From positions 1 to 49,491 of the forward strand of contig JAJPIM010000012.1 in assembly GCA_021324775.1 (NCBI GenBank): a DNA stretch of 49,491 nt, in the 5' to 3' direction. This DNA comes from Gemmatimonadota bacterium. Its GTDB lineage: Bacteria; Gemmatimonadota; Gemmatimonadetes; Gemmatimonadales; Gemmatimonadaceae. Positions 10,489 through 37,204 of this stretch are shown one piece after another (the first letter of the stretch is position 1; every line of letters starts with the position of its first letter). The notes beneath the pieces are model-generated. The model had not been told where the DNA came from. It made no database searches and saw nothing but the letters and a program-made list of their open reading frames with translations. The position numbers and the translations under genes were made by a program.

Positions 10489-12378
10489 TTGGCTGCCTCG
10501 TTGGTGAACTCATTGCAGCAGTTCCTGGCGCCCCAGCGCCGATTGCGGTTCTTCATCGTGCTGACCGTTGTGTTCGCGGGCGCCTTTGGTGTCAGTGTGT
10601 GGCGAGCCGAGCGCGTCGAACGGGAGCGCGTATCGACCGGCACGTGCCTATTTGCGAGCGAGGCGGCGCGCATTCTCCAGGTACGATCGCGACACTATCT
10701 CGATGCGATTGCGGCGCCGGTCTTCGCGGCGGTAGGGGGTGGCTCCGTCATCGACGCTGGAACGCCGCTCCGTGACCCTGCCGCGCTCCGCGCGGCGGAG
10801 GCGGGAGTCATCCAGTGCCATTGCGCGCCCGGAATCACGATCCAGGGGTACTTCCGCCTCGACTTTGATCCCGACGGATCCACTGGCGCTTTGATCATGA
10901 GAGGATCAGAGGTGGACGGCGCAACGCCACGCACCAATGCCGCGGCCGCCCTGACCGCTGGCTCGCGTGCGATGCCCGCTGTCCTCCGCGTCGACTCGGT
11001 TCGGATCGACTCCGTTCGCCTCGTGGAGGCGGTGACGCGCTTCGTCCCTCGCTTTCAAAATAGCGGGACCGTCGCGATCGCGATTACCAACTCTGCCGCG
11101 GACACGGACGCGCTCCAGGCGGTCGCCGTCCTCAGTCCGACCTACCGGCCAGATGGCACGTTGCGAGCGGTTTACGGCTTCCTGTCGGCACCCGCCGTAT
11201 TCGCGACTGAAGTGATTGCTCCGGTGTTCGAGCGTGAGCCACTCTTCCCGGCGACCCTCGCGTTACGGGGCACGGGGCGGCCACCGAGCTCGCAGGTCAC
11301 GCCGGTGCCCAACGATGAATTGGCGAGCCTGGCGGTACTGGACTCTCACTGGACAACGTTGTACCAGACTGGGCCCATGGCTGACACCGCCCGCTCAGCA
11401 CCCGGTTGTATCGCCATGGCGCGGCGGGACCCTGCGCTAGCGATGCTCATGCTGCACATTAGCCCGCCGCTTCAAGTGTATGCCCGGTGGGTACAGGGTA
11501 GTCTGGTCGAGTCTTATCTGCCTTTCGTCGCCGCGATCGCGCTCGCGATGCTGGTCTCTGTTGCCGCCGCGGCGTTCGGAGCACAGCGCGAAACCGAGCT
11601 GGCACGACTTCGATCCGACTTCGTCAGCAGTGTGTCGCATGAGTTGCGGACGCCACTCGCTCAGATCCTCATGTCTGGCGAATCGTTGCGCTTTGGACGT
11701 ATTCGCTCACACGCCGATCACGATCGCGAAGCCGATTCCATCTTGCGAGCAGCACATCATCTCACAGCACTCGTTGACAACGCGTTAGTCTTCTCACGCA
11801 TCGAGCACCACAACCTACGCATCGTGTCGCGCCTGACCGACGTGCAAGCCGTGGTCGAGGAGGCCATTGGCAGTATTGCACTGCTGGCTGATGGGGCGGA
11901 TACCACGATCACGAGCACGGTGCCGCGTGATCTCTACGCTGTCGTCGATCCCACCGCGTACCGGCAGGTTCTTGTGAACTTGCTCGATAACGCCATCAAG
12001 TACGGACAGCCCGGACAGGAGATCCTGATCGGGGCCGTCCGCAGCGGCGCTGGGCCGGGACTCGTGTCGCTCTGGGTCGATGACCAGGGGCCCGGGGTGC
12101 CGCCGAGCGAAGCGTCGAGCATCTTCGAGCCGTTCGTCCGCCTCGAGCGGGACCGCAATGTGGGGATCGCCGGGAGCGGACTCGGATTGTCGGTGGCTCA
12201 CCATCTCGTCGAGCAGCATGGTGGGTCCATTCGGGTCGAGCGCAGTGTCCGCGGCGCAGGTAGCCGGTTCATCGTGGAATTGCCTGCCCCGAGCGGATCG
12301 GACAGTGATGCGCCCGTGCACCCGCCACGTCCGGGGCAGAAGCGCCCAGTGAGCGGCCGCGCCCCGAGAAGCGTCTGA
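10489..12378 (+). CDS. Membrane sensor histidine kinase
   Basis: A 629-residue kinase. An N-terminal helix (RFFIVLTVVFAGAFGVSVW, about 20-38) and a second (LPFVAAIALAMLVSVAAAAFG, about 343-363) enclose a periplasmic sensor of about 300 residues with no recognised fold. HisKA follows with SVSHELRTPL, phospho-acceptor His at residue 384. The HATPase domain has the N box NLLDNAIKYG, the G1 box DDQGPGVP, the F box IFEPFVRLE and the G2 box GSGLGLSV. The start is uncertain: the frame opens at 10444 and offers only TTG 10489, TTG 10501 or GTG 10504, none with a good ribosome site. No response regulator is adjacent; the OmpR-type regulators at 15893 and 16959 are the nearest candidates. Confidence 0.9.
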   Translation: MAASLVNSLQQFLAPQRRLRFFIVLTVVFAGAFGVSVWRAERVERERVSTGTCLFASEAARILQVRSRHYLDAIAAPVFAAVGGGSVIDAGTPLRDPAALRAAEAGVIQCHCAPGITIQGYFRLDFDPDGSTGALIMRGSEVDGATPRTNAAAALTAGSRAMPAVLRVDSVRIDSVRLVEAVTRFVPRFQNSGTVAIAITNSAADTDALQAVAVLSPTYRPDGTLRAVYGFLSAPAVFATEVIAPVFEREPLFPATLALRGTGRPPSSQVTPVPNDELASLAVLDSHWTTLYQTGPMADTARSAPGCIAMARRDPALAMLMLHISPPLQVYARWVQGSLVESYLPFVAAIALAMLVSVAAAAFGAQRETELARLRSDFVSSVSHELRTPLAQILMSGESLRFGRIRSHADHDREADSILRAAHHLTALVDNALVFSRIEHHNLRIVSRLTDVQAVVEEAIGSIALLADGADTTITSTVPRDLYAVVDPTAYRQVLVNLLDNAIKYGQPGQEILIGAVRSGAGPGLVSLWVDDQGPGVPPSEASSIFEPFVRLERDRNVGIAGSGLGLSVAHHLVEQHGGSIRVERSVRGAGSRFIVELPAPSGSDSDAPVHPPRPGQKRPVSGRAPRSV

Positions 12379-12477: not shown

Positions 12478-13539
12478 TTAGTGAACCGTGCGGACGACCG
12501 CTAGGGCGAGCGCACGGGCCGTGTCGAGCGCAGCGGCCGCCGGCACCGCGATATTGGGGATGACTCCAGTTCCTTCCCAGTTCGCGCCGGTCACGGGGCT
12601 CACGGCTCGCGCATCGGGAACAAATATCACGTAGTCCGTGTCGACCGCGTAAAAGTCGCCCGGATTCGCTCCGCCGCGCGTTGTATCCCCAACAACAATC
12701 GCGTGCCGCTGGGCCTGAAGGAAATAGGCGACGGCCTCCGCTGCCGAGAACGTGGTGTGGCTCGTGAGGACAAAGATCGGCTTCGTCCCTCCGTACCGAC
12801 GGCCAGGGACGTACGCTGCAGTCCACGATTGCTCTACGTGACCGGGGTCGCGCGATCGCATCTCGCCAAATTCGACTGCCCCGTCGAACAGGTAGCTCAA
12901 GAGAAGGTTGACCTGGTCGGCGTCCCCGCCCCCGTTGTCGCGCACGTCGATGATCAGAGCATCGCTGTGTGCGAGGAACGTCATCGCGGCAGCCAGCGTC
13001 TCACCGGCGATGGAGGGCGCCTGCATGGAGGTCAGCCGCAAGTAGCCAACGCCGTCGGCTACGATCCGTGCCTCCGGCACACCGTAGTTCCCCCGTTCCA
13101 GTTCCCGTTTGACGGCATCGATTCGCCGATGACGAGTGGCCGAGTCGACGCCGGGCCCGGCGTGAATCGACTGTGGTTCGTAGGTGACGTGCAGGTGCTG
13201 ATCGTGGGACGCGGAGCGGAGATCTGCGGTTAATTCTGTGGCAAAGGCGTTCGCCCGCAGGGGTCGATCGTAGGCTCCGTGGCGCATTCGGCCGCGCAGA
13301 TAGACACCGATCGAATCCGCGACCGCAGGAAAGACGTATGTCTCGCGGACTCGGCGGATCACGCCCTCGATGACTCGGGTACGCGTCGGTCCGTCCACGA
13401 GCGGACTGGCGTCAGCCTTCCCCGGTGAATCCTGTGCCCTGGCTGCTGGTGCGCCCGCGACAACGCAAGCGAGGAGGCTCAGCCGACGCACACCAGGGCC
13501 CCAAAGCGTGCACCACGGAGAAACGGTACGCGCGTCCAT
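12478..13539 (-). CDS. Secreted S41-family (C-terminal processing-type) serine peptidase without PDZ domain
   Basis: A 353-residue protein with a signal peptide (RRLSLLACVVAGAPAARAQ). An N-terminal helical domain (VIEGVIRRVRETYVFP) is followed by the S41 core: ADGVGYLRLTSM, ALIIDVRDNGGGDADQV and TSHTTFSAAEAVAYFL. Ser 265 in TFSAAE is the predicted nucleophile. The short region between the N-terminal domain and the core leaves no room for the PDZ domain found in CtpA/Tsp proteins; it belongs to the PDZ-less group. ATG 13539 starts 29 bases after the stop of a gene that codes for a lone PDZ protein, so the two may work together. It is the last gene of the sigma/anti-sigma operon. Confidence 0.87.
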   Translation of the reverse strand: MDARTVSPWCTLWGPGVRRLSLLACVVAGAPAARAQDSPGKADASPLVDGPTRTRVIEGVIRRVRETYVFPAVADSIGVYLRGRMRHGAYDRPLRANAFATELTADLRSASHDQHLHVTYEPQSIHAGPGVDSATRHRRIDAVKRELERGNYGVPEARIVADGVGYLRLTSMQAPSIAGETLAAAMTFLAHSDALIIDVRDNGGGDADQVNLLLSYLFDGAVEFGEMRSRDPGHVEQSWTAAYVPGRRYGGTKPIFVLTSHTTFSAAEAVAYFLQAQRHAIVVGDTTRGGANPGDFYAVDTDYVIFVPDARAVSPVTGANWEGTGVIPNIAVPAAAALDTARALALAVVRTVH

Positions 13540-13568
13540 ATGACGGCCGTCGCTGGGCGTCTGGCCGA

Positions 13569-14054
13569 TCACGGGTCCGCCGGCGCCCGCGGTGGTACCG
13601 GGAATCGGCGCCGGTCGGGCGTCACCATGATGTAGGGCATGTTGCACCCCAACCGGGGCGTCACGCGCACCTCAAGGTCCTTCCCCGCACGTCGTACTCG
13701 GAGCGAAACCGGTTGGCCAGGTATGAGGTTTGCTAGACGGTCCCCGGCTTCGACCGTCGTAATTAGCAGCCCATCGACGGCGACGAGAACGTCCCCGTCG
13801 CGAAGCAGGCTGGCCGCAGGGCCAGTGCTGTCGACATCGAGAATGTAGGGCTCAGCGGAGAACGAATGGTGATACCGGCCGCCACTGAGACCGTTGACGG
13901 CGCATCCCGCCGCCACGCACTGAAAGCCTCCGATCCCGATGTCGCCAGTCAATTGCTTCCCCTCGCGGCAGTGCGCTCTCGGTTGTGCGACCGCCAGCCT
14001 GGCAAGGGCACCGATTAACGCGCATGGGACGCTTCCGCGCGCAAACCTGATCAT
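13569..14054 (-). CDS. Small secreted PDZ-domain protein
   Basis: A 161-residue protein with an N-terminal signal segment (ALIGALARLAVAQ). The middle reads as a PDZ domain: EPYILDVDSTGPAASLLRDGDVLVAVDG, then LANLIPGQPVSLRVRRAGKDLEVRV, the GPA-x-x-x-L-x-x-GD pattern seen in protease PDZ domains. Two Cys in GGFQCVAAGCAV could form a disulfide in the periplasm. Its start overlaps the stop of the anti-sigma gene by 4 bases (ATGA at 14051-14054). An S41 peptidase lacking a PDZ domain is encoded just downstream. It could act as a substrate-presenting adaptor for that protease; this is inference. Confidence 0.75.
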   Translation of the reverse strand: MIRFARGSVPCALIGALARLAVAQPRAHCREGKQLTGDIGIGGFQCVAAGCAVNGLSGGRYHHSFSAEPYILDVDSTGPAASLLRDGDVLVAVDGLLITTVEAGDRLANLIPGQPVSLRVRRAGKDLEVRVTPRLGCNMPYIMVTPDRRRFPVPPRAPADP

Positions 14055-14836
14055 GGCGCACCTCCACTCGACGTATCACGTGTCTTCCTTTCCGGCCCGC
14101 TGGATGGCGGCTGCAATACCGATGGCGCCCGACCATCCGTGGCATCTCCGGTGCTTCGCATCGTGCTGAGCAACGCAGCGAGTTGCGCAATGTGCCGATC
14201 GGCCGGATTTGTCTGTGCCAGTTCTAGCGCGGCACCTTGCATGACGGCCACCGCCGCCTGTTTGCCCTGATACGCATTCGAGGATCGAGGGTCAGGCGCG
14301 CGCGCCAGAGACGCAATGGCGCTGAGGTAGGCTGTCCCCGTCTCTTGCACGGCAAGCGCCCAGGTCAGGGAATCCGGATACGCGTGCGCTGACGTGCCGG
14401 CGACCGTGTACACGGCCTTGCGCTCTGACGCACGTGAAGGCACGAGGCCCCTATATGTCGATAGGCGACCCAATCCGAACGACGCGACCATCGCCGCAGC
14501 GAGCGCAACGGCCGGTAGCGCCCGGTGGTGCCAGCTCGATCCCGGCTCCCACCAGGACTTGAGCGGGCGACGGGTTCCGCTCTCGGAGTCTGCTGCCCCC
14601 GCCGAGCGTCCTGGGGCGTCCGCGATCCGTCGCTCGATTGATGGCCACAGATCGCGTGGCGGAGCACCCGCCAGCGGTAATGCGCTTACGCGTTCGCGCA
14701 GCGTCGTCGCACGCGCCGCATACTCTCGACAGCGGTCACAGATGACGACATGGCGACTGACCGACGTGTCTCGATCCTCCGCGCGGAGGCATGACACCCA
14801 CGCGTGAAGCTGCTCGGACGAAGGGTGTGATCTCAT
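14051..14836 (-). CDS. Membrane anti-sigma factor with zinc-type HxxxCxxC motif
   Basis: A 261-residue single-pass protein. Residues 1-50 form an anti-sigma domain with the ZAS motif H29-x3-C33-x2-C36 (SRHVVICDRCREY). A membrane helix follows at about 106-124 (LPAVALAAAMVASFGLGRL), and the rest lies in the periplasm. It would hold the ECF sigma factor encoded upstream until a periplasmic signal or proteolysis frees it. ATG 14836 is fixed by the 4-base ATGA overlap with the sigma stop; the longer upstream open frame only shadows the sigma gene. The low-complexity, Pro/Ser-rich C-terminus is unlike a folded sensor. A downstream PDZ protein and S41 peptidase in the same operon suggest regulated cleavage. 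Confidence 0.85.
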   Translation of the reverse strand: MRSHPSSEQLHAWVSCLRAEDRDTSVSRHVVICDRCREYAARATTLRERVSALPLAGAPPRDLWPSIERRIADAPGRSAGAADSESGTRRPLKSWWEPGSSWHHRALPAVALAAAMVASFGLGRLSTYRGLVPSRASERKAVYTVAGTSAHAYPDSLTWALAVQETGTAYLSAIASLARAPDPRSSNAYQGKQAAVAVMQGAALELAQTNPADRHIAQLAALLSTMRSTGDATDGRAPSVLQPPSSGPERKTRDTSSGGAP

Positions 14837-15375
14837 CGCGTTAGGTACTCCATCAGGAGGCGTCTGGCTCGGTGGAGTTGAGTCTTCACGGTACCGAGCG
14901 CGATGCCCATGTGCATTGCAACGTCCTGCGTGGAGTAATCCTCGACCTGACGAAGGAGAAAGACCATCCGCGCACGAGGGGGCAGGCTGGCGATCGCGCG
15001 CTCGAGATCGATATCCGTGGTCGGCGCGGCGCTCTGAACAGCACATATGAAATCATCATGGTCGCCGATCGGGACGAAGCGCCGATCGTAGCGCCCAACT
15101 CCCCTGATGTGCCGGAGAGCGCAACGCACGGCGATCCGGTGGATCCAGGTAGCTGGGGCACATTCGTGCCGAAACATGGCCCGATTCGTCCACGCTTGAA
15201 CGAACGACTCCTGCAGAATGTCCTCGGCGGCGGCGGCGTTTCGCGTCATCCGGAGAGCCAGCATGTAGATCCGGCGGTGCTCGGCGCGGTATAAGGCCTC
15301 CAGGTCGATGTCGCTCACCCAGCAGCCCGAGTGAGGCGCTCGAGGCCAGTCGCATGGTTGGATGGTTGCGGACAT
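14833..15375 (-). CDS. ECF-type sigma-70 family RNA polymerase sigma factor
   Basis: A sigma factor of 180 residues from ATG 15375, or 161 from GTG 15318; neither has a clear ribosome site. Region 2 is LYRAEHRRIYMLALRMTRN then AAAAEDILQESFVQAW. Region 4 is LERAIASLPPRARMVFLLRQ then DYSTQDVAMHMGIALGTVKTQLHRARRLL, with the helix-turn-helix for the -35 element. There are no regions 1 or 3, as in group IV sigmas. It heads a minus-strand operon with its anti-sigma factor (4-base overlap), a PDZ protein and an S41 peptidase. Such units usually respond to envelope or oxidative stress; the actual signal is unknown. A (CT)9 tract lies about 140 bases upstream. Confidence 0.9.
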   Translation of the reverse strand: MSATIQPCDWPRAPHSGCWVSDIDLEALYRAEHRRIYMLALRMTRNAAAAEDILQESFVQAWTNRAMFRHECAPATWIHRIAVRCALRHIRGVGRYDRRFVPIGDHDDFICAVQSAAPTTDIDLERAIASLPPRARMVFLLRQVEDYSTQDVAMHMGIALGTVKTQLHRARRLLMEYLTR

Positions 15376-15892: not shown

Positions 15893-16750
15893 ATGGTACG
15901 GGTCGACGCCGTCGAGTTGATGGATCAGCCCACGCTGGTCGCGCGCGATGGCCCGAAGGCGTGGAGTCTGGCGGGCCAGACCTCACCGGACTCGGCAGTT
16001 TCGCAAGCATCCGACGAGGCGACGCAAGCCGGCAGCGCGCTGCGCATCCTGGTCATCGAAGACAACCTGCACTTCGCGGCGACACTCCGGAACAACCTGG
16101 AGATCGAGGGATTCATCGTCGATCTCGCAACGACCGCGATTCAGGGACACCGGTTGATCCGCGCCGAGCCTCCCGCTCTCATCATTCTCGACGTCATGCT
16201 CTTCGGTCGCGACGGCTACGAGTTGCTCCGGGATCTTCGCACGGAGGGCAGCGACGTGCCGGTGGTCTTTCTGACCGCCCGCCGGGACGAGGAAGACAAA
16301 CTGCGCGGCTTCGCACTCGGCGCCGACGACTTTGTGACAAAGCCAGTGAGCTTCGCGGAGCTGCTCGCCCGGATCCGGGCCGTGCTGCGGCGCGCGCACC
16401 ATGGTGTTGAAGAAACGGCTCCTCAGTGGATACGGTTCGGGGACATCGCCGTTTACCCTCCGACCCGAACCGTGCAGCGCGACGGTGTGGTCGTCGGCCT
16501 CCGGCCTAAGGAGTACGATCTCTTGCTGGCGCTGATGCGGCAGCACGACCGCATTGTGTCGCGGGCGGACTTACTGCGTGATGTCTGGGGCTATCGCGCT
16601 GGCACGGTCAGCCGCACCGTGGACACACACATGGCCGGCCTCCGGCAGAAGCTCGAAATCGACCCGCTCAACCCGTGCTACCTGATGACGGTGCGCACCG
16701 CCGGCTACATGCTGCGTTGGCGGCCTGATGGCGTTTCGTCGAGCCTGTAA
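15893..16750 (+). CDS. OmpR/PhoB-family response regulator
   Basis: A 285-residue two-component regulator. The receiver begins at ALRILVIEDN, has the phospho-acceptor Asp at residue 100 (LIILDVML) and the conserved Lys at 150 (VTKPVS). The winged-helix effector follows: VVGLRPKEYDLLLALM, RADLLRDVWGY and VDTHMAGLRQKLE, ending in the wing VRTAGYMLRW. ATG 15893 is chosen because AGGAGG sits 4 bases upstream. This start still leaves about 48 residues of non-conserved sequence before the receiver; the frame stays open further up to TTG 15788. No kinase is adjacent; the kinase at 10489 is a possible partner. It is divergent from the ECF operon and followed by a second regulator. Confidence 0.9.
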   Translation: MVRVDAVELMDQPTLVARDGPKAWSLAGQTSPDSAVSQASDEATQAGSALRILVIEDNLHFAATLRNNLEIEGFIVDLATTAIQGHRLIRAEPPALIILDVMLFGRDGYELLRDLRTEGSDVPVVFLTARRDEEDKLRGFALGADDFVTKPVSFAELLARIRAVLRRAHHGVEETAPQWIRFGDIAVYPPTRTVQRDGVVVGLRPKEYDLLLALMRQHDRIVSRADLLRDVWGYRAGTVSRTVDTHMAGLRQKLEIDPLNPCYLMTVRTAGYMLRWRPDGVSSSL

Positions 16751-16958
16751 GCACTGGGGAGGCCAGCTTGGCGCCCGGCGCCGACACCTTGCACAGGGAG
16801 ACTGCTGCGGGCTCATACACCAACGGGTGAGCCAGCCGATGGCGTGATGTCATGCGCACCCGGCGATTTGTGAGAACTAGGTCGCCATGGCGTGCAGTGT
16901 TTGTGGGATAATGGTCGCTCGTCTCTCGTCCGGCGACGCCTGGCCATAATGTGTGTGT

Positions 16959-17735
16959 ATGGAGACCACTCGTCGCACCTTAGAAGCGGGCGCGCGCCCG
17001 CGGCGCGCCGGCCCTAGCCTCACCCGCGGCCCCACGCTCCGGCCCGGGACGTCAGAACAGGTGCTCATCGTTGCTGCGGACCGCATCGTCACACAAGCGT
17101 GGCGCACAGAGCTTGCGCGGAGCGGCTTCGCGGTCGACGAAGTGTCGTCTCTGGATCAAGCGTCCGCCCGTGCGAGCCAATCTGGTGTCGCCCTCATCGT
17201 GGTGGACGTCATGACGGACGAGAACGGCAGCATCGGCTTGATCCAGACGTTGCGCGACGCCGGAAATCCGGCGACGATCTTAGCCGTCACCCGAGCTGGC
17301 AACTCCGAGAGCGTGATCGACGCGCTCGAGGCCGGAGCCGATGGCTGCATCGGGCATACTTCCAGCGCGCGCGAGTTTGTCGCGCGGTTGCGGGCACTCG
17401 TCCGTCGCCGGCGACCGGGGCCTCGCTCAGACACTGTGTCATGGGTCGTCTATGATCTTCGCATCGACCCGACCGCTCGATGCGTCTTCCGCAATGCGCA
17501 GCCAATTGCCCTGGCGAGACGCGAGTTTGCGGTGTTGCTTGCGTTACTCCGCCGCCGCGGTCGTGCCGTGTCCCGGGAGGCAGTCCTCCGGGATGTCTGG
17601 CGCCGTCCACCGCGGCCCACACCACACTCGGTGGATGCCATCATCCGCGACCTGCGTCGCAAGCTCGAACCCAACCAACGGAGTCCTCGCTACATCCTCA
17701 CGGTGCGATCCGCCGGGTACCTCATCCCGGCCTGA
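16959..17735 (+). CDS. OmpR-like transcriptional regulator with degenerate receiver domain
   Basis: A 258-residue protein with the receiver plus winged-helix layout. The receiver keeps the Asp at residue 83 (IVVDVMTDENG), but the acidic pair after strand 1 is replaced (VLIVAADR) and the essential Lys position reads His 133 (DGCIGHTSSAREF). Phosphorylation is therefore doubtful. The DNA-binding half is intact: ALARREFAVLLALLRRRGR, REAVLRDVWRRPP, VDAIIRDLRRKLE and the wing VRSAGYLIPA. ATG 16959 or the GTG two codons earlier may be the start; neither has a clear ribosome site. It lies 208 bases after the first regulator and could bind related sites without phosphorylation, or respond to another ligand. 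Confidence 0.82.
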   Translation: METTRRTLEAGARPRRAGPSLTRGPTLRPGTSEQVLIVAADRIVTQAWRTELARSGFAVDEVSSLDQASARASQSGVALIVVDVMTDENGSIGLIQTLRDAGNPATILAVTRAGNSESVIDALEAGADGCIGHTSSAREFVARLRALVRRRRPGPRSDTVSWVVYDLRIDPTARCVFRNAQPIALARREFAVLLALLRRRGRAVSREAVLRDVWRRPPRPTPHSVDAIIRDLRRKLEPNQRSPRYILTVRSAGYLIPA

Positions 17736-35812: not shown

Positions 35813-37204
35813 ATGCGAGCGACAGCGCGAAGGTCAATCAGGTTGGTTGCGACTCGTATACGTCTCGTAGCCTTCGTTCTTGTTGCCGGTCCAGCGGCCG
35901 CTCAGTCTGCCGCGACGGCACGGTGGTCACCGGATCCCCAGACGCACCGTGTGGTCGTCGATACGATTGCGGCGCAGTTGCGCCGCCATTATGTCGACGC
36001 CGACACGGGCCAACTCATTGCCGAGTACATACTGCGGCGAGCGGCGGCCGGCACCTACGACACGATAACCGATCCGTATCGTTTGGCGGCCCGCTTGACC
36101 GCCGACCTTGGCACCGTCAATCACGACGGGCACCTGTCGGTCCACTATGCTCCTGATATGCCGACGTATCCGGTCGGACCAGAGGGGCTCAAACTCGGCG
36201 GCCCTCCAGGGCCGCTGCCACCAGAGGTTGTGGAGGAGGAGCGCTCGGCGCATTACGGGATTGCTCGCCTCGATGTCCTGCCCGGCAATGTTGGTTACAT
36301 GGACCTGCGCAGCTTCCCAGAGTCCCCAGCGGCGTACGATGCCATAGTAAACGCCTTGCGATATCTCGAGCCGACCGACGCAATCATCATCGACCTCCGT
36401 CGCAACGGAGGTGGATCGGGCGAGATGTCCAACTTTCTCATCAGTCATTTCGTGGGACCCGACTCGACCCTGTCGCTGCGCGTGATCAACCGGTCGGGCC
36501 ACGAGCAGATCGATCGCTGGACGCTCGGGAAGGTGCCGGGACCGCGCCGGCCGACGGTGCCGCTCTTTCTCCTCACCTGCCGGGCGACGGGGTCGGCCGC
36601 CGAAGATTTTGCCTTTGTCCTGTCGAACCTCGGCCGGGCGACGGTCGTCGGGGACCGTACGTATGGCGCGGGCCACAACAACGCGTTCCTCGCCTCCGGG
36701 TACGGATTCGTGACGTCGATCTCATTTACGCGGGTCATGGACCCGCGAACCGGTAAAGAATGGGAGGGGGTGGGTGTCCGCCCGACCCTCCCTGCCGAAC
36801 CGGAGCAGGCGCTTCTCGTTGCACACGCGACGGCGGTCGAGCGACTTGCCGCCTCGGCGACCGGGCCGCGGCGCAAGGAATACATGGCAATCCACGAGGC
36901 ACTCGAAGCGGAGCTGCATCCGCGAGTTGTGCCACCGCTGATGCTCGAGCGCTATGCCGGCCGCTATAGCGGTGGCCAGTCCATCGCGTTCGTCGATGGC
37001 CGGCTGGCCTTTCGGCCACGTGCTGGGTTCCTGTCCGAGCCTCTCGTCGCGATCGGAGACTCCGTCTTTGCCCGTCACGCGAGCGATCGGATCATCTTTG
37101 CCCACGACGCCGCTGGCGCAGTCGTGATGAGCGTCGTGACGCTGAACCGGGGCACCCTCTCGTTTCGGCGGATCGACGGGGAGGCCGAGACGCCAGCGGG
37201 GTAG
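35813..37204 (+). CDS. Secreted S41-family serine peptidase
   Basis: A 463-residue protein with a signal segment (RLVAFVLVAGPAAAQ). An N-terminal helical part (VVVDTIAAQLRRHYVD) precedes the S41 core: NVGYMDLRSFPES, AIIIDLRRNGGGSGEMSN and TCRATGSAAEDFAFVL with Ser 261 as nucleophile. The core ends at GVGVRPTLP. About 80 C-terminal residues (MLERYAGRYSGGQSIAFVDG) form a small beta domain like those attached to other secreted hydrolases. No PDZ domain is seen. ATG 35813 is preceded directly by an in-frame GTG. It follows the CocE-type gene by 19 bases. It has the same core as the peptidase at 12478 but is longer and not part of a sigma operon. Confidence 0.87.
   Translation: MRATARRSIRLVATRIRLVAFVLVAGPAAAQSAATARWSPDPQTHRVVVDTIAAQLRRHYVDADTGQLIAEYILRRAAAGTYDTITDPYRLAARLTADLGTVNHDGHLSVHYAPDMPTYPVGPEGLKLGGPPGPLPPEVVEEERSAHYGIARLDVLPGNVGYMDLRSFPESPAAYDAIVNALRYLEPTDAIIIDLRRNGGGSGEMSNFLISHFVGPDSTLSLRVINRSGHEQIDRWTLGKVPGPRRPTVPLFLLTCRATGSAAEDFAFVLSNLGRATVVGDRTYGAGHNNAFLASGYGFVTSISFTRVMDPRTGKEWEGVGVRPTLPAEPEQALLVAHATAVERLAASATGPRRKEYMAIHEALEAELHPRVVPPLMLERYAGRYSGGQSIAFVDGRLAFRPRAGFLSEPLVAIGDSVFARHASDRIIFAHDAAGAVVMSVVTLNRGTLSFRRIDGEAETPAG

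Follow-up and report, generated by a model that had tools for sequence, protein, structure and literature searches.

The described systems closest to the locus analysed here are DegS-RseA and AlgW-MucA (sigmaE and AlgU), which share with it an ECF sigma factor, a one-pass membrane anti-sigma factor and a periplasmic PDZ fold of the DegS/AlgW kind. DegS and AlgW use their PDZ domains to bind the C-termini YQF and WVF, which are aromatic at positions 0 and -2, and a similar logic of aromatic C-terminal peptides is seen in relatives of our locus (PMC8545111). For the Gemmatimonadota and other little-studied phyla, it is largely unknown how envelope stress is signalled to ECF sigma factors. A further point of comparison is Prc, a Ser-Lys enzyme carrying an internal PDZ domain. 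In Pseudomonas putida, this periplasmic S41-family peptidase makes the site-1 cut in the IutY anti-sigma domain before RseP (PMC5411451; reviewed in PMC7593790). The more interesting content of the present analysis is a phylum-wide module of sigma factor, anti-sigma factor and secreted PDZ protein with an aromatic anti-sigma tail; the locus at hand is an unusual member of it, in which the tail is absent and an IRBP-type S41 peptidase has been added.

The window (the whole stretch of 49,491 nucleotides of Gemmatimonadota DNA that was analysed) is part of contig C41 in a genome of 4.19 Mb, and the features of its operon are collected in Table 1. An earlier reading made from the letters alone (the sequence-only reading) had given the gene order as sigma factor, ZAS-motif anti-sigma factor, PDZ protein and S41 peptidase, with two four-base ATGA overlaps and then a gap of 29 bases. 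The order is borne out by the open reading frames together with Pfam and the ZAS motif, and the coordinates agree with the spacing: on the minus strand, the sigma and anti-sigma genes overlap at 14836-14833, the anti-sigma and PDZ genes at 14054-14051, and the gap before the S41 gene runs from 13568 to 13540. A Pfam search with the window's anti-sigma factor gave no match; the protein has one hydrophobic segment at about residues 106-123, followed by a C-terminal part of about 135 residues. Both the PDZ protein and the peptidase have a signal-peptide-like N-terminus. The four-gene arrangement is not a chance one, because the same genes in the same order occur in a second genome of the family (locus L089, genome G104), where the order is sigma factor, a one-pass protein without ZAS motif, a two-PDZ protein and an S41 peptidase; the PDZ and S41 proteins of the two loci are 38-43% identical.

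Table 1. Features of the operon within the window, with the evidence for each.
Feature	Position	Strand	Basis
ECF sigma factor gene, regions 2 and 4	14833..15318 (stop at 14833; start GTG 15318, possible earlier ATG 15375, the start taken in the sequence-only reading)	-	Pfam (Sigma70_r2 1.6e-14, r4_2 3.2e-18) and ORF list
Membrane anti-sigma factor gene, C-terminus ...SSGGAP	14051..14836	-	ZAS motif, one hydrophobic segment, position, homology to anti-sigma factors of other modules
Anti-sigma ZAS motif HVVICDRC	14729..14752	-	Sequence
Anti-sigma predicted transmembrane segment	14468..14521	-	Hydrophobic stretch read from sequence
Secreted single-PDZ protein with four conserved Cys (C29, C46, C51, C137)	13569..14054	-	Pfam PDZ_2 9.2e-8, alignment of 32 relatives, AlphaFold model
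Secreted IRBP-type S41 serine peptidase without PDZ	12478..13539	-	Pfam (Peptidase_S41 2.9e-24, Peptidase_S41_N 3.1e-7); IRBP nearest by sequence and fold
S41 predicted nucleophile, Ser265 codon	12745..12747	-	Kept in 41/41 relatives
S41 predicted catalytic His115 codon	13195..13197	-	Kept in 41/41 relatives, absent from CtpA-type
S41 predicted catalytic Glu322 codon	12574..12576	-	Kept in 39/41 relatives

A central claim of the sequence-only reading was that the PDZ protein and the peptidase are one CtpA-type protease split into two genes. It was right that the peptidase has no PDZ domain (Pfam shows only Peptidase_S41_N and Peptidase_S41), but the split fails: the peptidase is full length for a different family, IRBP-type, without the CtpA lysine, and its PDZ neighbour belongs to a family that nearly always occurs without an S41 gene. 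IRBP-type S41 proteins comprise the repeats of retinol-binding protein 3 (IRBP) and bacterial proteins with S41_N and S41 domains, and the window's peptidase is like them in domain make-up, sequence and fold. Its sequence matches the IRBP repeats far better than any CtpA (phmmer 9.5e-110 to 9frx, four repeats), and its AlphaFold model (pLDDT 81) has IRBP at Foldseek ranks 1-6 (7jti, 4lur), followed by Bacteroidales S41 proteins, with CtpA lower. All nine S41 relatives searched with Pfam have Peptidase_S41_N and then Peptidase_S41 with no PDZ domain. His115, part of a DxH motif, and Ser265 are invariant in 41 relatives, with Glu322 kept in all but two, and the column that holds the lysine of the CtpA Ser-Lys dyad has G or A in every one of the 41 IRBP-type sequences; it has K in all three CtpA-type proteins of the window's genome. 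The window's peptidase is thus IRBP-type, from a lineage lacking PDZ: the internal PDZ and the dyad lysine of CtpA and Prc are both missing. Since this lineage functions without a PDZ domain, no PDZ part was split off, and a split-CtpA origin is ruled out by domain make-up, catalytic residues and fold. From its residues we predict a peptidase of the Ser-His-Glu type. The IRBP fold by itself is no proof of peptidase activity, since vertebrate IRBP is a carrier of retinoids; the window's protein differs from it in being bacterial and secreted and in belonging to a sigma operon, and it retains Ser, His and Glu.

The PDZ protein, for its part, is nearest in predicted fold to proteins of HtrA type. 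The solved structures closest to its AlphaFold model (pLDDT 86) are DegS complexed with YQF-type peptides and AlgW complexed with peptides of its own, and CtpA-type structures come after those of HtrA type. The four cysteines listed in Table 1 are kept in at least 90% of 32 PDZ sequences, as would suit a secreted protein with two disulfides. There is one PDZ domain in the window's protein against the usual two in its module relatives. Unlike DegS and AlgW, in which PDZ and S1 protease domains go together, the module has its PDZ as a separate secreted protein with no S1 protease domain, and where a peptidase is present it is an S41; the window's operon accordingly holds a bare PDZ protein and an S41 peptidase, and no S1 protease of the DegS/AlgW type.

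How widely this PDZ family occurs was followed with a profile built from three relatives, which gave strong matches in about 39 of 395 Gemmatimonadota genomes. Forty neighbourhoods were then scanned with profiles for sigma factors, anti-sigma factors, PDZ proteins, IRBP-type S41 peptidases and CtpA. Of 45 PDZ loci, 42 come with at least 1.2 kb of upstream sequence, and a same-strand ECF sigma gene is found at 39 of these 42, in nearly all cases with a membrane protein gene in between, and two of the three loci without a sigma gene have runs of N upstream. Loci were selected by their PDZ gene, and these counts link the PDZ family to sigma operons without giving the proportion of sigma operons that include a PDZ gene. 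The PDZ gene therefore belongs to a module of ECF sigma factor, membrane anti-sigma factor and secreted PDZ protein found across the Gemmatimonadota, and the window has all three genes in this order on one strand, the PDZ protein with a signal-peptide-like start. An S41 gene, by contrast, is present at just 2 of the 36 PDZ loci with at least 1.2 kb downstream, the window and L089, which tells us that the PDZ module works without it. The expectation that all four genes would recur together in homologous sigma operons thus held for the PDZ gene and not for the peptidase, which is missing from 34 of 36. The closest three-gene relative (L090, genome G034) has no S41. No PDZ relative was found in two sampled genomes of the same genus, where the profile search gave weak matches only, and a scan of named genomes with strict patterns from the PDZ alignment returned two matches, both Gemmatimonadota MAGs. 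We found no paper describing the module in the open-access literature; most subscription journals lay outside this search.

Two side observations concern the make-up of these modules. Many of the anti-sigma-like proteins (L089:7232-7690 and those of most modules) have no ZAS motif yet share a periplasmic part with the pattern VQxAGxxYxxAL. The window's genome also has a further set of sigma, anti-sigma-like and PDZ genes (L235:1666-4207, on G000:C5), in which the PDZ protein is a distant one and the anti-sigma-like protein ends in GGQY.

Inspection of the anti-sigma factors of the module (the proteins encoded between the sigma and PDZ genes) reveals a common ending: VVWF, VLWF, TVWF, LVEF, TIWF, HWF, VRF and EASF are among their C-termini. 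Phenylalanine is the last residue in 31 of 39 (30 of 39 by automatic pick, before the ORF at L171 was replaced), for example at L142, L152 and L164, and the roughly 20 residues preceding the tail are variable. When the proteins are clustered at 60% identity, F is the last residue in 20 of the 27 clusters and Y in one more; in the background, 590 other genes from the fetched regions, 6.4% have F in this place and 9.1% have F, Y or W. The binomial probability for this enrichment of F ends in clusters is 8e-19, a figure that ignores deeper relatedness. More distant PDZ modules show the same tendency, with F, Y or W at the end of 8 of 10 anti-sigma factors and VWR or LWR in the remaining two, and among about 16 anti-sigma-like proteins of the window's genome that have no PDZ gene just one ends in F. 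The conserved aromatic tail resembles the peptide ligands of the DegS and AlgW PDZ domains and could itself be a PDZ ligand. The likeness has its bounds: the ligands of DegS and AlgW have aromatics at 0 and -2, whereas in module relatives it is the anti-sigma factor that bears the tail, and the aromatic residues lie at 0 and -1.

The window's own anti-sigma factor ends in SSGGAP, so the tail model is not directly applicable to it, and the aromatic tail is common in these modules and not universal. Non-aromatic ends are also found at L090 (PERMP) and L141 (GGLR, from an uncertain ORF pick), and the PDZ proteins of these three loci have only the first type of PDZ domain, or a degenerate second one. 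This coincidence suggests that the second PDZ domain, absent in the window, is the putative reader of the tail.

As the best explanation of the whole we tentatively favour, at a little short of even chances, a Gemmatimonadota ECF module with a PDZ-watched anti-sigma factor, plus one branch in which an S41 peptidase trims that anti-sigma factor. The one-pass membrane anti-sigma factor would hold the sigma factor, and the secreted PDZ protein would watch its periplasmic part. The carboxylate of the aromatic C-terminus is, in most relatives, the probable binding site of the PDZ protein, which in this way may control the access of a periplasmic protease. Misfolded outer-membrane proteins, through their free C-termini, could compete for this PDZ pocket and so act as the inducing signal. 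In the branch of the window and L089, a gene for an IRBP-type S41 has been added after the PDZ gene; its product most likely acts on the anti-sigma factor, trimming the periplasmic part, and a protease of the RseP type would then complete the cleavage. An RseP-type site-2 protease is encoded in the window's genome (Peptidase_M50 at G000:C13:5143-6219, E 1.1e-62). An S41 enzyme in the site-1 role would not be new in kind, as Prc and RseP act on IutY; Prc differs from the window's enzyme, which is IRBP-type, PDZ-less and encoded in the operon. A more specific form of the proposal, in which an outer-membrane-protein-like tail on the anti-sigma factor is held by its dedicated PDZ and relieved by misfolded proteins, with the Ser-His-Glu S41 of one branch replacing DegS as site-1 protease, we consider unlikely as a complete package. 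Of the sequence-only reading, what stands is the operon and a likely link to control of the anti-sigma factor; the split protease does not. The pairing of an anti-sigma factor bearing a likely C-terminal PDZ ligand with a neighbouring secreted PDZ protein makes this switch directly and cheaply testable, and the S41 branch, if the favoured reading is true, would offer a candidate physiological substrate for the bacterial IRBP-type S41s, proteins about whose role little is known.

In the main rival reading the sigma factor drives the peptidase gene, whose product would be a secreted stress enzyme for clean-up or nutrient release with no part in sigma control; this we regard as a real possibility, behind the favoured reading. 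It fits with most PDZ modules having no S41, with most IRBP-type S41s of the phylum standing alone, and with the 29-base gap, without overlap, between the PDZ and S41 genes. The gene neighbours of related peptidases bear against it. A tree of 41 IRBP-type S41s pairs the peptidases of the window and L089 as sisters (support 99/91), so that the four-gene form, a rare one limited to these two genomes, has a single origin within the sample. They fall in a group of eight (support 81/91) that also includes L210, L211, L212 and L218, where the S41 gene lies directly ahead of another ECF sigma gene. This second type of operon, found in four genomes of two families (L210:1896-4569; L211:3807-6702; L212:3996-6889; L218:324-3157), has the order IRBP-type S41, ECF sigma factor, small anti-sigma-like membrane protein and lipoprotein-like protein. 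Such a recurrence is more than would be expected of random cargo. On the tree, the label of lying next to a sigma gene needs to change only twice, compared with 5.7 times after shuffling, none of 500 shuffles being as low, and the other S41s examined stand alone with no sigma neighbour; this subclade of S41 peptidases accompanies ECF sigma factors in two different arrangements. Furthermore, the PDZ module is present in 7 of 8 genomes with the S41 subclade and in 32 of 387 others (Fisher 4e-7, for a grouping made after viewing the tree and with genome size and shared ancestry uncontrolled).

Somewhat less probable again, and on balance doubtful, is a role for the PDZ protein as a protector of the anti-sigma factor, in the manner of RseB or MucB, unrelated to the S41 gene. 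The module is complete without an S41 in most genomes, and the aromatic tails would be natural ligands for such a PDZ; the same data, however, fit equally well a PDZ that promotes cleavage, and in the window there is no tail to protect by. That the two proteins form a two-chain CtpA-type protease, the PDZ protein delivering C-termini to the S41 as the sequence-only reading had it, is improbable: both are secreted and keep the same neighbours and order in two diverged genomes, but the S41 belongs to the IRBP type, brings an N-terminal domain of its own and lacks the lysine, the PDZ family occurs without it, and the nearest folds of the PDZ are HtrA-type ahead of CtpA-type.

Several smaller observations concern the peptidases and the operon. 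The window has a second IRBP-type S41 gene (35813-37204), from a different subclade and with no adjoining sigma gene, and at L224:2-193 (G041:C105) a contig edge leaves just the end of an S41 gene (57% identity to the L089 S41) and cuts off the genes upstream, so that a third four-gene operon is possible there. The lipoprotein-like protein of the second operon type has no Pfam match and by eye resembles a secretin N-domain. The genes of the window's operon have GC of 0.62-0.66 and GC3 of 0.67-0.74 (mean GC3 of window genes 0.76, sd 0.03); a clearly low value is confined to the anti-sigma gene, and composition gives no firm sign of recent acquisition. A scan for sigma-70 promoters and terminators found nothing exceeding chance, and a search of viral contigs found no relatives. 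The operon runs on the strand opposite to that of its neighbours, with a gene for a histidine kinase on one side and two for response regulators on the other (10504-12378; 15893-17735).
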